From an uncultured bacterium (lineage in GTDB: Bacteria > Cyanobacteriota > Vampirovibrionia > Gastranaerophilales > Gastranaerophilaceae): 64,000 nucleotides of DNA. Shown one piece after another: positions 15,817 through 34,831 of the stretch (position 1 is the first letter of the stretch; the number at the start of each line of letters is the position of its first letter). The position numbers were made by a program, and so were the translations under genes. The stretch spans positions 62,001 to 126,000 of the forward strand of contig CASEDF010000002.1 of the NCBI GenBank assembly GCA_949286705.1. The letters are read 5' to 3'. The notes under the pieces are model-generated. The model was not told where the DNA came from, did not search any database, and saw only the letters and a program-made list of their open reading frames with translations.

Positions 15817-15860
15817 TTGCATGATTAAAGCTTGTATTATATAATACAAAAAAAGGAGAG
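15817..15860 (+). promoter_or_regulatory. Promoter and palindromic operator of the pilin-like G-tract locus
   Basis: TTGCAT (15817-15822), 17-bp spacer, TATAAT (15840-15845), then AAAGGAG before the ATG at 15866. The -10 is embedded in a perfect 14-bp palindrome, GTATTATATAATAC (15834-15847), which would suit a dimeric repressor. Confidence 0.65.
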
Positions 15861-15865
15861 TTAAT

Positions 15866-15913
15866 ATGGAAGATATGACTAGTTTAAATCACGGGGGGGG
15901 GCGACTCCTCTAA
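15866..15913 (+). CDS. 15-codon ORF with strong RBS, truncated by a G9 tract
   Basis: ATG with a near-ideal AAAGGAG site opens a peptide that begins MEDMTSLNHGGG and ends after the G run at 15911-15913. The frame immediately after the run (from 15901) is open for nearly 400 codons and runs into the prepilin gene. One extra G (or two fewer) would join the two. I read this as the out-of-frame start of the pilin-like gene, not as an independent leader peptide, though attenuation or assembly error are alternatives. Confidence 0.55.
   Translation: MEDMTSLNHGGGRLL
15893..15901 (+). repeat. Poly-G tract (9 G)
   Basis: Nine consecutive G in an AT-rich genome, ten codons into a well-signalled ORF. 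Long G runs are classic slipped-strand contingency tracts. The only other G9 in the window is at 32824-32832, inside a glycan-modification gene. Confidence 0.9.
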
Positions 15914-15971
15914 GTACTCAGGACAAGAGTTTTGACGGTACTGTTTGGAAGAAGTTACTAAGATACTATGA

Positions 15972-16267
15972 TACTAAGGCAGTAAGAAGAAACATTCGTA
16001 ATAGTAATGTGGCCCAACATAGTTATGTTCGGAGGGAGTCTGTCATCCTGAAGTGCCTGAGGCACGACAATATACTTGGTTTTGGTCAAGCTATAAACGT
16101 CATTCCGCACTGCCTGAGGCAGGACAACATACCGGGCATTGGCGGGACTTACCGTGTCATCCTGAACTTGATTCAGGATCTCAAGAACAATGTGAAGCAT
16201 TATAGTTCGGAAAACAGAAGCGTGAGCGAAGCTCACTGTAAACCCTTAGTGCCATACTGCCTTAGTA
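15972..16267. repeat. Segment bounded by 13-bp inverted repeats inside the pilin leader
   Basis: TACTAAGGCAGTA (15972-15984) is the exact inverse of TACTGCCTTAGTA (16255-16267). Flanking bases extend the match imperfectly (GATACTAAG versus CTTAGTATC). The bounded 296 bp contains the three 57-bp palindromic units and stays open in the pilin frame. It looks like a small non-autonomous insertion. Confidence 0.5.
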
Positions 16268-17082
16268 ACTTAGTATCTTCCAAAAAAATCGCCTTCACTC
16301 TTGCGGAAGTCTTGATAACCCTTGGTATCATAGGTATTGTGGCAGCCTTGACAATTCCGACGCTTGCAGGTGTTTACAAAAAGAAGATGCTTGAAACCAA
16401 ATTACGAAAGACCATCGCTGTTCTAACGGAGGTCGTCAGACGTATTGAAGCAGATGAGGGCAGTTTTATTTTTTTGAATAATGCATCGGACCTTAATGAT
16501 CGGTATGTTTCTCAAAGAGAATTTGCAGAAACATATATTATGAAGTATTTGAATAATGCAAGACTTTGCGGAGCTACCAAGATGGAAAAAGGCAGAGATT
16601 GTGCGTCTCAAGCAGTTGTGAACGGTGCAGAAAAAGAAGTATTTATGAAAAATATCGGTAGCAGCAAATATACAAATAAAATAGTTTTACCTGACGGAAC
16701 AGGTTTTTGGATTCAGTATCCTGTGTTAAGCGGACATCCGACGATGTACGGTTATACAGTAGATATTGATTTGAATATTTCAAAAGACAAGATGTATAAC
16801 GGCATAGATTATTTTCGATTCAGGCTGCTTAAGAATGAATCGAAAAATACATATTACATTTCATCCGTTAACAGCTCGTCAAACGTAAATGATTTTGTGC
16901 CGTATTTACCGCACTGTAACTTGGATTCCCTAAACTACCCCGACGGGAATACGCTTGAGTATGCACAGCTTTGTGAAAATAACTCGCTGGATAATCATTA
17001 CGGTTATGACGTTACATTTTGTTCCGTTATGATTGAGTGTAATAACTGGAAAATACCGGAAAATTATCCGCTAAGATTCTAG
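16009..17082 (+). CDS. Type IV pilin-like protein with long repeat-derived N-terminal leader
   Basis: The frame is open from 15883 to 17082. The recognisable protein begins at SSKKIAFTLAEVLITLG (about 16276), a prepilin-type signal and helix, followed by a globular domain of about 250 aa with several Cys (LCGATK, RDCASQ, HCNLD, LCENN, CSVMIECNN). No ATG lies in frame upstream; the coordinate given uses a weak GTG. About 90 residues encoded by the tandem repeat precede the prepilin signal, which would be abnormally long. The only good start is the ATG at 15866, one base out of frame because of the G9 tract. Either phase-OFF, a pseudogene, or a sequence error. Confidence 0.6.
   Translation: MAQHSYVRRESVILKCLRHDNILGFGQAINVIPHCLRQDNIPGIGGTYRVILNLIQDLKNNVKHYSSENRSVSEAHCKPLVPYCLSNLVSSKKIAFTLAEVLITLGIIGIVAALTIPTLAGVYKKKMLETKLRKTIAVLTEVVRRIEADEGSFIFLNNASDLNDRYVSQREFAETYIMKYLNNARLCGATKMEKGRDCASQAVVNGAEKEVFMKNIGSSKYTNKIVLPDGTGFWIQYPVLSGHPTMYGYTVDIDLNISKDKMYNGIDYFRFRLLKNESKNTYYISSVNSSSNVNDFVPYLPHCNLDSLNYPDGNTLEYAQLCENNSLDNHYGYDVTFCSVMIECNNWKIPENYPLRF
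16042..16212 (+). repeat. Three tandem 57-bp units with REP-like palindromic heads
   Basis: Units start at 16042, 16099 and 16156, an exact 57-bp (19-codon) period. Each begins GTCAT(C/T)C and holds a palindrome: GTGCCTGAGGCAC, CTGCCTGAGGCAG and CCTGAACTTGATTCAGG. Units 1 and 2 also match in their second halves (GACAAtATAC versus GACAAcATAC). In the pilin frame they read as VILKCLRHDN, VIPHCLRQDN and VILNLIQDLK. Similar GTCATCCTGAAC-type palindromes are dispersed repeats in many bacterial genomes. Confidence 0.7.
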
Positions 17083-32653: not shown

Positions 32654-34831
32654 ATGTCTAGTGCCAAAATTTTATTTAATATAGATTGTCTAACCGATAA
32701 AATACAGGATAATTTACTTGAATTTTTGCAGACTCAAAATGTGCCTTTTGTTATTCAATTTGAAGGCAGAAATATTTTTCAAAACAGTAAACTGGCGGTA
32801 ATTTGCGAAAAGGTTGTGAAACAGGGGGGGGGTAACCATCTTTTTGCCTTTTCGTTTGATCTGAATAATATTACAGGGCTTGATAAAATTTTTGAACAAT
32901 TTAACAGTTCAATAGCTTACTATGAGATTAATATTGAGCTGCCGGTGCATAAAAGTTTTTATAAAAATCTCGAAATCTGCCGTAAAAAATTCGGATTTAG
33001 CTGCCGTAACACGCAGTTCTACTGTACTTTATCAGAAAAAAATTATCATGCGGTTAAAAAATTGTATAAATATCTGGAAAATTCAGGCTTTAACTTGAAT
33101 ATAGAAAGAAAAATGACCTCTGAAGGCTGGGTTGAATATCCTCCCAAAATAGAACGATGGCTCAAATCCGGACACTGGCTGCAGGCAGAACAAAAAATTG
33201 ACATACCTTTAAATATGGTGAAAAACGGTCAGTTTAAGCAGTTGGATACGGTATGCTCATGCGGTAATAAATTTTTCAGAGTTATGTCTGATGGCACGGT
33301 AAAAAGATGTTTTACAAAGCAAATAAGCGGTTGGGAAGATCTTGGTGATTTCTCCAAAACTTCTGACGTCAGATTACTAAAAGAAAATTCTCCTTGTTTT
33401 TCTGTTTGTGCTCAGTGTAAACATTATGCAAAACTGAAAGTTCAGAACTTTATTTTTGATAAGGCGGATGTTCTTGTTGACGACAGAAATAAAAAATATG
33501 ATGTCGCGGTTGTAGGTTTTGGCTGGGCTGCAAATTATGGCGCAATATTAACAAATTACGGCTTCATAAGCTTTTTGAAAAAAATGGGATTAAAACCGTT
33601 AATGGTTGAAAAACCTCGTGATTTCGTCAACAATTGCTATCCTGATGAGGTTTATTCTCAGACTTTTTCCCGTAAGTTTAATGAAAAATATTTCAAAGGT
33701 AATTTGAGCCGTATATACAATGACAAAAACGATATGAAAGCATTAAACAGTATTTGCGATACATTTATACTCGGCTCGGATCAGTGTCTGCGGTACGATT
33801 TGCAACAGCCTGCTCAATATTATGCGGGGATGGATTTTTTAAATGCTGATAAAAAGAAAATAGCTTTTTCATCAGGACTCGGTCATTTTGAATATTTGGG
33901 TGATGATTGGTACAAAATGAATATGCATTATTATCTTGCTCAATTTGATCATGTTGCGGTCAGAGAACCATCTACAAAATTTGTTGTAAAAGAGCAGTTT
34001 AATACGGATGCAGTCAATGTTGTAGACCCGATGTATTTGATTGATAAAGAAGAATATGAATATCTCGCATCTCAGTCGGATGAACCCTTGGAAAAGGATT
34101 GTATAGTTGCATTTATTCTTGCACCTGACAAAAAATATAAAGAACAGCTTGATCTTTTGAGTAAAAAATTATCCGGTAAAGTCATAGTCTTAGCTGAATG
34201 CTGGAATGTTGACATATTAAAAAGCTACGGTTTTGAAAATGTTATTGCCCCGAGTGTTGAAAGCTGGATAAACCACCTTTTGCATGCAAAATATGTTGTT
34301 ACTGATTCTTTCCATGCGGTGTATACCTTGATTACACTGCGAAAACAATTCACTCTTGTCGTGAATAAAAATATTGCATTTAAGCGAGGTATGGCAAGGT
34401 TCCCTATGTTTTCCAGCGTGCCGGAACTCGCTGAAAGAATTGTCTACAGTATTGACGATATAGGGCAGAATGATAAAATTGAGGATGAAATTGATTTCAA
34501 ACCGATTGTCGAACACTTTGACAATATAAAAGAATTTTCTGTAAAATGGCTTAAAGAGGCGCTTGCGGCACCTAAGACAAAACCTGCCATTACAGACAGT
34601 GAAAGTTTATCAATATTGCATGACAAACTTAATTATCTGAAAGATTATATGGATGATATAAATAAAGCAATTCGTGCCAATAATACCTGTGGTTCAGCTA
34701 ATTCGGCGAAATCATGCGGTTTGAAAAAACTGCTTAGAAAAATATTTTCTGTAGAAAAGATTTTTCATTCAGGTAAAAAATATAAAGTTATAACAGTTCT
34801 AGGGATAAAGTTAAAGCTGCGACGTCATTAA
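32654..34831 (+). CDS. Fusion: radical-SAM/SPASM-like half lacking the Fe-S triad + polysaccharide pyruvyl transferase
   Basis: 725 aa. Residues 1-275 look like a radical-SAM barrel plus SPASM-like tail: strands such as YYEINIELPVHKSFYKNLEI, then Cys-rich CSCGNKFFRVMSDGTVKRCF and CFSVCAQCKHY. The CxxxCxxC cluster motif expected near the start (KILFNIDCLTDK) is missing. Residues about 280-620 are a pyruvyl-transferase domain: VAVVGFGWAANYGAILTNYG, TFILGSDQCLRYD, AVREPS, SFHAVYTLITL. The tail ends KVITVLGIKLKLRR, a motif shared by glycan proteins. GGAGG site. Codons 57-60 contain a G9 tract, in frame here. It follows two glycosyltransferases, so a glycan-decorating role is likely. Confidence 0.75.
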   Translation: MSSAKILFNIDCLTDKIQDNLLEFLQTQNVPFVIQFEGRNIFQNSKLAVICEKVVKQGGGNHLFAFSFDLNNITGLDKIFEQFNSSIAYYEINIELPVHKSFYKNLEICRKKFGFSCRNTQFYCTLSEKNYHAVKKLYKYLENSGFNLNIERKMTSEGWVEYPPKIERWLKSGHWLQAEQKIDIPLNMVKNGQFKQLDTVCSCGNKFFRVMSDGTVKRCFTKQISGWEDLGDFSKTSDVRLLKENSPCFSVCAQCKHYAKLKVQNFIFDKADVLVDDRNKKYDVAVVGFGWAANYGAILTNYGFISFLKKMGLKPLMVEKPRDFVNNCYPDEVYSQTFSRKFNEKYFKGNLSRIYNDKNDMKALNSICDTFILGSDQCLRYDLQQPAQYYAGMDFLNADKKKIAFSSGLGHFEYLGDDWYKMNMHYYLAQFDHVAVREPSTKFVVKEQFNTDAVNVVDPMYLIDKEEYEYLASQSDEPLEKDCIVAFILAPDKKYKEQLDLLSKKLSGKVIVLAECWNVDILKSYGFENVIAPSVESWINHLLHAKYVVTDSFHAVYTLITLRKQFTLVVNKNIAFKRGMARFPMFSSVPELAERIVYSIDDIGQNDKIEDEIDFKPIVEHFDNIKEFSVKWLKEALAAPKTKPAITDSESLSILHDKLNYLKDYMDDINKAIRANNTCGSANSAKSCGLKKLLRKIFSVEKIFHSGKKYKVITVLGIKLKLRRH
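32824..32832 (+). repeat. Poly-G tract (9 G) in coding sequence
   Basis: CA followed by nine G then TAACC; encodes Q-G-G-G-N early in the first domain. A one-base slip would truncate the protein soon after residue 60. Confidence 0.9.

Follow-up and report, generated by a model that had tools for sequence, protein, structure and literature searches.

Members of the Gastranaerophilales, which are related to the cyanobacteria, live in the gut and lack photosynthesis. The leaders of type IV prepilins are removed by prepilin peptidase, and in Neisseria the pilE/pilS system of antigenic variation provides pilin diversity by means of common 5' parts and exchanged bodies. In Campylobacter, poly-G contingency loci surveyed with PhasomeIt are described, in the excerpted text of that survey, as G tracts of at least 7 and mostly 9-10 residues in the 5' part of the coding sequence, with ON and OFF states set by tract length and 5-81 such loci per strain (PMC6321876). 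Rickettsia palindromic elements, as far as the excerpt that describes them goes, are palindromic sequences of ~150 bp that form in-frame fusions in unrelated genes (PMC10969869). In the open-access literature, a search for Gastranaerophilales and phase variation, as well as a broader search judged by its listing, found no paper on the subject, and one for Melainabacteria and prepilin led to a single paper, in which pilA-pilD are listed and nothing further.

The window, i.e., the whole stretch of 64,000 nucleotides that was analysed, comes from a 1.85-Mb, 41-contig draft genome of an uncultured Gastranaerophilaceae bacterium. We consider it likely that the window holds the 5' region of a type IV prepilin gene of the contingency (phase-variable) kind, whose leader is disposable but open (Table 1). 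An initial annotation of this region described an array of palindromes that are translated in frame ahead of a prepilin signal, which agrees with the mechanical ORF call, whose frame is open from GTG 16009 to 17082. It overlooked the start formed by a Shine-Dalgarno sequence, an ATG and a G9 tract at 15853-15901. GTG 16009 has no Shine-Dalgarno sequence, and none of the five in-frame ATG, GTG or TTG codons between the tract and the signal is preceded by an evident one. With nine Gs, as assembled, the frame of ATG 15866 stops after 15 codons (MEDMTSLNHGGGRLL, then a stop codon), and with one added G it is continuous through the array and the pilin for 405 codons (405 aa). Because one more G is needed to join the ATG to the pilin, the assembled allele reads OFF. 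The pilin frame has a stop just before the G run and is open past it. A second G9 of the window, at 32824-32832, is found inside a long gene (32654-34831, 725 aa) whose frame is open as assembled (ON if variable).

Table 1. Features of the candidate phase-variable prepilin gene (positions in the window; / marks the predicted cleavage site)
Feature	Position	Strand	Evidence
Shine-Dalgarno AAGGAG	15853..15858	+	sequence; equal layout at other tract loci
Proposed true start ATG and nine codons to the tract (27 nt)	15866..15892	+	
G9 tract, presumed switch, OFF as assembled	15893..15901	+	
Mosaic leader with an open pilin frame	15902..16293	+	
TACTAAG-type repeat, 5' arm (LRYYDTKAV); 92% complementary to 16255-16279	15960..15984	+	
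Unit 1, 57 bp (VILKCLRHDNILGFGQAIN), palindrome GTGCCTGAGGCAC	16042..16098	+	sequence, alignment, fold
Unit 2, 57 bp (VIPHCLRQDNIPGIGGTYR), palindrome CTGCCTGAGGCAG	16099..16155	+	sequence, alignment, genome copies
Third unit, different palindrome (VILNLIQD; ATCCTGAACTTGATTCAGGAT)	16156..16182	+	alignment, genome copies, fold
TACTAAG-type repeat, 3' arm, inverted (PYCLSNLVSS)	16255..16279	+	
Prepilin (class III) signal, KKIA/FTLAEVLITLGIIGIVAALTIPTL; cleavage site predicted at 16293/16294	16282..16362	+	
Mature type IV pilin-like protein	16294..17082	+	profile, fold-model, structure matches

The predicted prepilin carries a class III signal, as type IV prepilins do, that consists of basic residues, then [GA]/FTLxE and a hydrophobic stretch, and the genome encodes one Peptidase_A24 protein above its cut-off. 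The Pfam N_methyl score of the window protein is under the curated cut-off (19.3 vs 21.2 bits). The GspG model is matched at E <=0.001 by 40 of the 44 members that were aligned; the window protein falls far short of the cut-off of that model. Its predicted structure (pLDDT 78) comprises a helix at residues 4-56 followed by strands, and the best match among solved structures is the pilin FimA, which is weak (E 0.08). The protein is thus predicted to be a pilin from its signal together with weak profile and fold matches. Its closest paralogue in the same genome is L031, with 63% identity in the mature part.

The window gene belongs to a large repertoire. A search of the genome for the signal region gave 82 matches, and 79 prepilin records were read, 78 of which are distinct (L154 repeats one of L056). 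Tracts, defined as runs of 7-11 G or C located <=900 nt upstream of a prepilin, are found in 58 of the 79 records, and 52 of these 58 (51 distinct) keep the pilin frame open all the way between tract and signal. The other six (L039, L040, L126, L133, L136 and L147) are closed between tract and signal; several closed loci, in this genome and in others, may restart just before the signal. The 58 tracts are G9 (35), G10 (9), C9 (6), G8 (3), G7 (2), C7 (2) and G11 (1). In 37 of the 52 open records one base has to be added to connect the start with the pilin, ten are ON, four (three distinct) need the loss of one base and one has no start. Counted as distinct open loci (n=51), ten are ON, 40 are OFF and the start of one was not found, with the frame set by tract length. 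Of the 51 open tract records that have a start, 31 show the same distance of 27 nt from start to tract as the window. Conversely, 53 of the 63 distinct tracts of G9 or longer in the genome are followed by a prepilin match at a distance of up to 750 nt, where 2.1 are expected; the G10 tracts of L150 and L151, judged to be outside the leader and excluded from the tract counts, are included in this distance-based figure. Three of the ten such tracts found elsewhere carry the leader module, two of them at contig ends. The third, L066 (G000:C8:53017), joins tract and leader module to a body that is pilin-like but without the FTLAE signal, and looks like a deletion product or a silent cassette. A second class of tracts consists of C7 or C9 on the coding strand after the conserved start AGATAGTCGCCCCCCCCC (L051, L054, L140, L142, L143, L146 and L155). 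In another group of loci (L032, L041, L054, L120, L123, L141, L144 and loci in G001 and G132), the start of the prepilin signal is duplicated in the leader (AFTLAEG...AFTLAEV).

These loci resemble those of Campylobacter, as the excerpted survey describes them, in tract length, 5' coding position, a frame set by length and occurrence in dozens per genome (PMC6321876). Unlike those described in that excerpt, however, most of the G9+ tracts precede a single gene family, the prepilins, and are followed by a long repeat leader, and the present system is known from sequence alone. If the reading is correct, ~50 switchable pilins in 1.85 Mb would make surface variation one of this genome's larger investments, a number comparable to the upper part of the Campylobacter range given there (PMC6321876) but centred on one gene family.

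The same layout is found in relatives, for which one genome per species was used. The leader module is present in seven of 16 genus genomes, and a search for it in other MAGs identified 72 loci, all of which are from Candidatus Gastranaerophilales bacterium or, in one MAG, from an uncultured bacterium. These 72 loci hold 47 prepilin records, of which 34 are OFF, five are ON, two are closed, one is startless and five are tractless; tract, start and open frame are found together in 39 of the 47. The arrangement of Shine-Dalgarno sequence, ATG and G8 occurs in all 16 genus genomes and in 144 of 383 order genomes (141 of 361 inside the family and 3 of 22 outside), with controls near zero; these figures are to be read as presence or absence only, as per-genome counts are inflated by tracts longer than 8, which are counted several times per strand. 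Sixty such places were read in 15 other genomes: the prepilin motif follows in 47, six reach a contig end and seven lack the motif, including L367, where a prepilin-like signal is found below the motif threshold. In 31 of the 47 places with the motif the frame is open (the loss of one base is needed in 20 and the gain of one in seven, and four are ON), and 16 are closed.

The lengths and states of the tracts also bear on the main alternative, in which G9 is a constitutive slippery site where -1 ribosomal frameshifting or RNA polymerase slippage gives low, fixed expression and the DNA is unchanged. A G9 tract combined with the need for one more base is found in 30 open G-tract records of this genome and in 30 of the 47 records of relatives, all of which one -1 shift would serve. 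The 31 open loci of the 15 other genomes, however, with tracts of 9-12, have mixed needs, so that no common shift would suit them. Tracts of 7, 8, 10 and 11 occur too, and L192, in a relative, has an interrupted run of ten, GGGGGGGGAG, that is in frame. Furthermore, G9 (53%) and G10 (26%) are the pattern of known Campylobacter contingency tracts in the excerpted survey (PMC6321876). We therefore regard a constitutive slippery site as unlikely.

That the leader is translated is suggested by its reading frame. Across the 52 open records, the 4,367 leader codons are free of stops when read in the pilin frame, against 339 and 434 stops in the other two frames, although these records were chosen for being open and the fair figure is 52 of 58. 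Selection on the residues was assessed with 43 copies of the first leader module, from which 405 pairs differing by <=20% were compared. Differences on codon positions 1, 2 and 3 number 1626, 2147 and 2193, respectively, and 511 of 2,559 single-base codon differences are synonymous (0.20, where 0.23 is expected without constraint); for the first 36 codons of the mature part, the figure is 760 synonymous of 896 single changes (0.25 expected). The leader pairs share ancestry and are non-independent, but the contrast with the mature part is large. The substitutions indicate that the leader amino acids drift neutrally and that the pilin N-terminus is under purifying selection. We read the leader as selected to stay open while its residues are unselected, which would fit a piece that is cut off by prepilin peptidase.

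It is very unlikely that the leader is untranslated, the pilin starting internally at GTG 16009 or later and the palindromes being untranslated RNA or DNA elements. The mechanical ORF start is consistent with this alternative, as is the folding of the 451-nt stretch, which as RNA is more stable than shuffled sequences (z -3.4) and to which the inverted TACTAAG-type repeats contribute part; an Rfam search of the stretch gave a sub-threshold, chance-level match only. The lack of an evident Shine-Dalgarno sequence at all five internal start codons argues against it, and an internal start would leave the stop-free frame across 51 leaders unexplained. Apart from this alternative, a role at the RNA level, which the initial annotation suggested as well, is conceivable in view of the fold.

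Leader pieces are found standing alone, as TACTAAG arrays followed by GTCGG...CCGAC palindromes and GTCATCCTGAAC palindromes (L167-L172), and the leaders are best described as mosaics of repeats that are also present between genes. At L172 (G000:C4:21382-21632), tandem units of ~103 bp, each combining a TACTAAG array with a GTCGG palindrome and a REP, are apparently intergenic.

In the window, TACTAAG repeats flank the palindrome array as inverted arms. The GTCAT heads of the array are located at 16042, 16099 and 16156, a spacing of exactly 57 bp. The initial annotation had called the array an exact 57-bp tandem, which holds for the spacing but not for the units: units 1 and 2 have 77% identity across 44 nt, and only the 12-nt head is common to units 3 and 1. 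The array is absent from the Tandem Repeats Finder output for the window, and its description as a simple tandem repeat was abandoned on that ground. All three heads are palindromic, as had been noted, and folded alone they give -8.4, -7.8 and -8.8 kcal/mol (z -1.5, -1.0 and -2.6). The array encodes VILKCLRHDNILGFGQAIN, VIPHCLRQDNIPGIGGTYR and VILNLIQDLKNNVKHYSSE, upstream of KKIA/FTLAEVLITLGIIG in the same open frame. Unit 3 represents a separate palindrome family (GTCATCCTGAACTTGATTCAGGATCT) with 29 genome copies at <=3 mismatches and none of the reversed control, and several copies have matched changes on both arms, i.e., changes that preserve pairing. The family of units 1 and 2 is another one, of the CTGCCTGAGGCAGGACAA type, with 28 genome copies (control 0).

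The initial annotation had raised the question whether copies in the genome favour genes with prepilin signals, and they do. In the unit-3 family, 16 of the 29 copies are <=900 nt upstream of a prepilin, 15 of these 16 inside its open frame, and the corresponding figures for the CTGCCTGAGGCAGGACAA-type family are 12 of 28 and 11 of these 12; the other copies (13 and 16, respectively) are away from prepilins. The copies are thus not confined to the DNA between genes, nor is the frame closed in all relatives. All 26 in-frame copies found are in prepilin leaders, in a check that was centred on the surroundings of prepilins. The 57-bp step was observed 13 times in the loci fetched from this genome, 11 times in nine loci upstream of prepilins and once each in L090 and L094, which have no prepilin within 900 nt. 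Because the step also occurs at the latter two loci, the period is a property of the element and not a product of the reading frame, and the divisibility of 57 by three can be regarded as a lucky property of the element.

Like REP and other intergenic palindromic (MITE-like) elements, these palindromes are short, are present in tens of copies with pair-preserving differences and also occur between genes; unlike those elements, many of them are in frame inside prepilin leaders. A family-specific transposase, such as a REP-associated IS200-like transposase (RAYT), was considered and provisionally set aside, as the one Y1_Tnp (IS200-like) protein of the genome has no such palindrome in the surrounding 2.1 kb. 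The likeness to Rickettsia palindromic elements suggested by the initial annotation is partial. Palindromic repeats are fused in frame with genes in both cases, whereas the present ones measure 26-57 bp and, among the in-frame copies of the prepilin-centred check, are seen in the leaders of one family, the prepilins, where the excerpt describes unrelated genes for Rickettsia (PMC10969869).

The initial annotation also suggested that the repeats extend the signal region. A role of this kind, in which the palindromes are kept for their peptide and the 19-mers are a functional extension of the prepilin leader, is highly improbable: a 19-residue step is repeated in several leaders, but the leader residues are neutral, the step occurs at two places without a nearby prepilin, the leader of the closest paralogue L031 lacks the array, and the leaders contain palindromes of either orientation (VILN and QVQDD). 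Finally, homopolymer lengths in a 41-contig draft could be assembly errors, G runs being error-prone, and the gene simply be in frame, which we hardly credit because tract, start and spacing are repeated at ~50 loci and in unrelated assemblies, and the layout survives even with tract lengths off by one. The array is one decoration of a larger system, namely a large, apparently phase-variable prepilin repertoire with disposable, repeat-built leaders.

For the phase-variable prepilin gene, we propose that translation starts at ATG 15866, nine codons ahead of the tract. With nine Gs the ribosome would stop within a few codons, and after a slipped-strand change to ten (or seven) Gs it would continue across a leader of ~140 codons and reach the pilin. 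Prepilin peptidase would subsequently cut this unusually long leader away, and because the leader would be removed, its amino acids would be immaterial and its openness alone would matter. Such a tolerated, repeat-rich leader may take up intergenic palindromes, including the 57-bp array, and selection on frame alone would explain why intergenic palindromes are read in frame.

The leader may also provide homology for the exchange of switches and pilin bodies among the ~50 loci. Leaders and bodies are unlinked: 490 pairs of leaders are >=90% alike over 60 nt, and in 459 of them the mature parts are <40% alike, while many relatives in the mature part have no matching leader. Loci L188 and L191, each from a different genome, have unlike start regions and share 96.6% identity over the 1,241 nt that follow, roughly from the tract. 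Recombination would account for this unlinking. Differences in tract length between relatives in the mature part, such as the G10 of L058 and the G9 of L191, were considered as evidence for slippage and discarded, as the leaders concerned are not homologous. Diverse pilins, shared 5' parts and exchanged bodies are also features of Neisseria pilE/pilS, but a single expression locus with silent partial copies was not seen here, and the majority of loci each combine a start of their own with a complete pilin. More tentatively, and with odds that we put slightly below even, this may be a mix-and-match surface system throughout the Gastranaerophilaceae, with dozens of poly-G-switched pilins, a shared, disposable and translated leader of intergenic repeats through which recombination could combine any switch with any body, and repeats that are kept in frame as the leader is cut off.

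Two very long G runs were also observed, of 27 Gs at G314:C127 (L304) and of 65 Gs at G247:C2 (L320), and are possibly assembly artefacts. Starts with a Shine-Dalgarno sequence, ATG and poly-G also precede long non-prepilin ORFs in relatives (L308, L311, L332/L392, L387, L389 and L391), some of which appear epimerase-like by eye.
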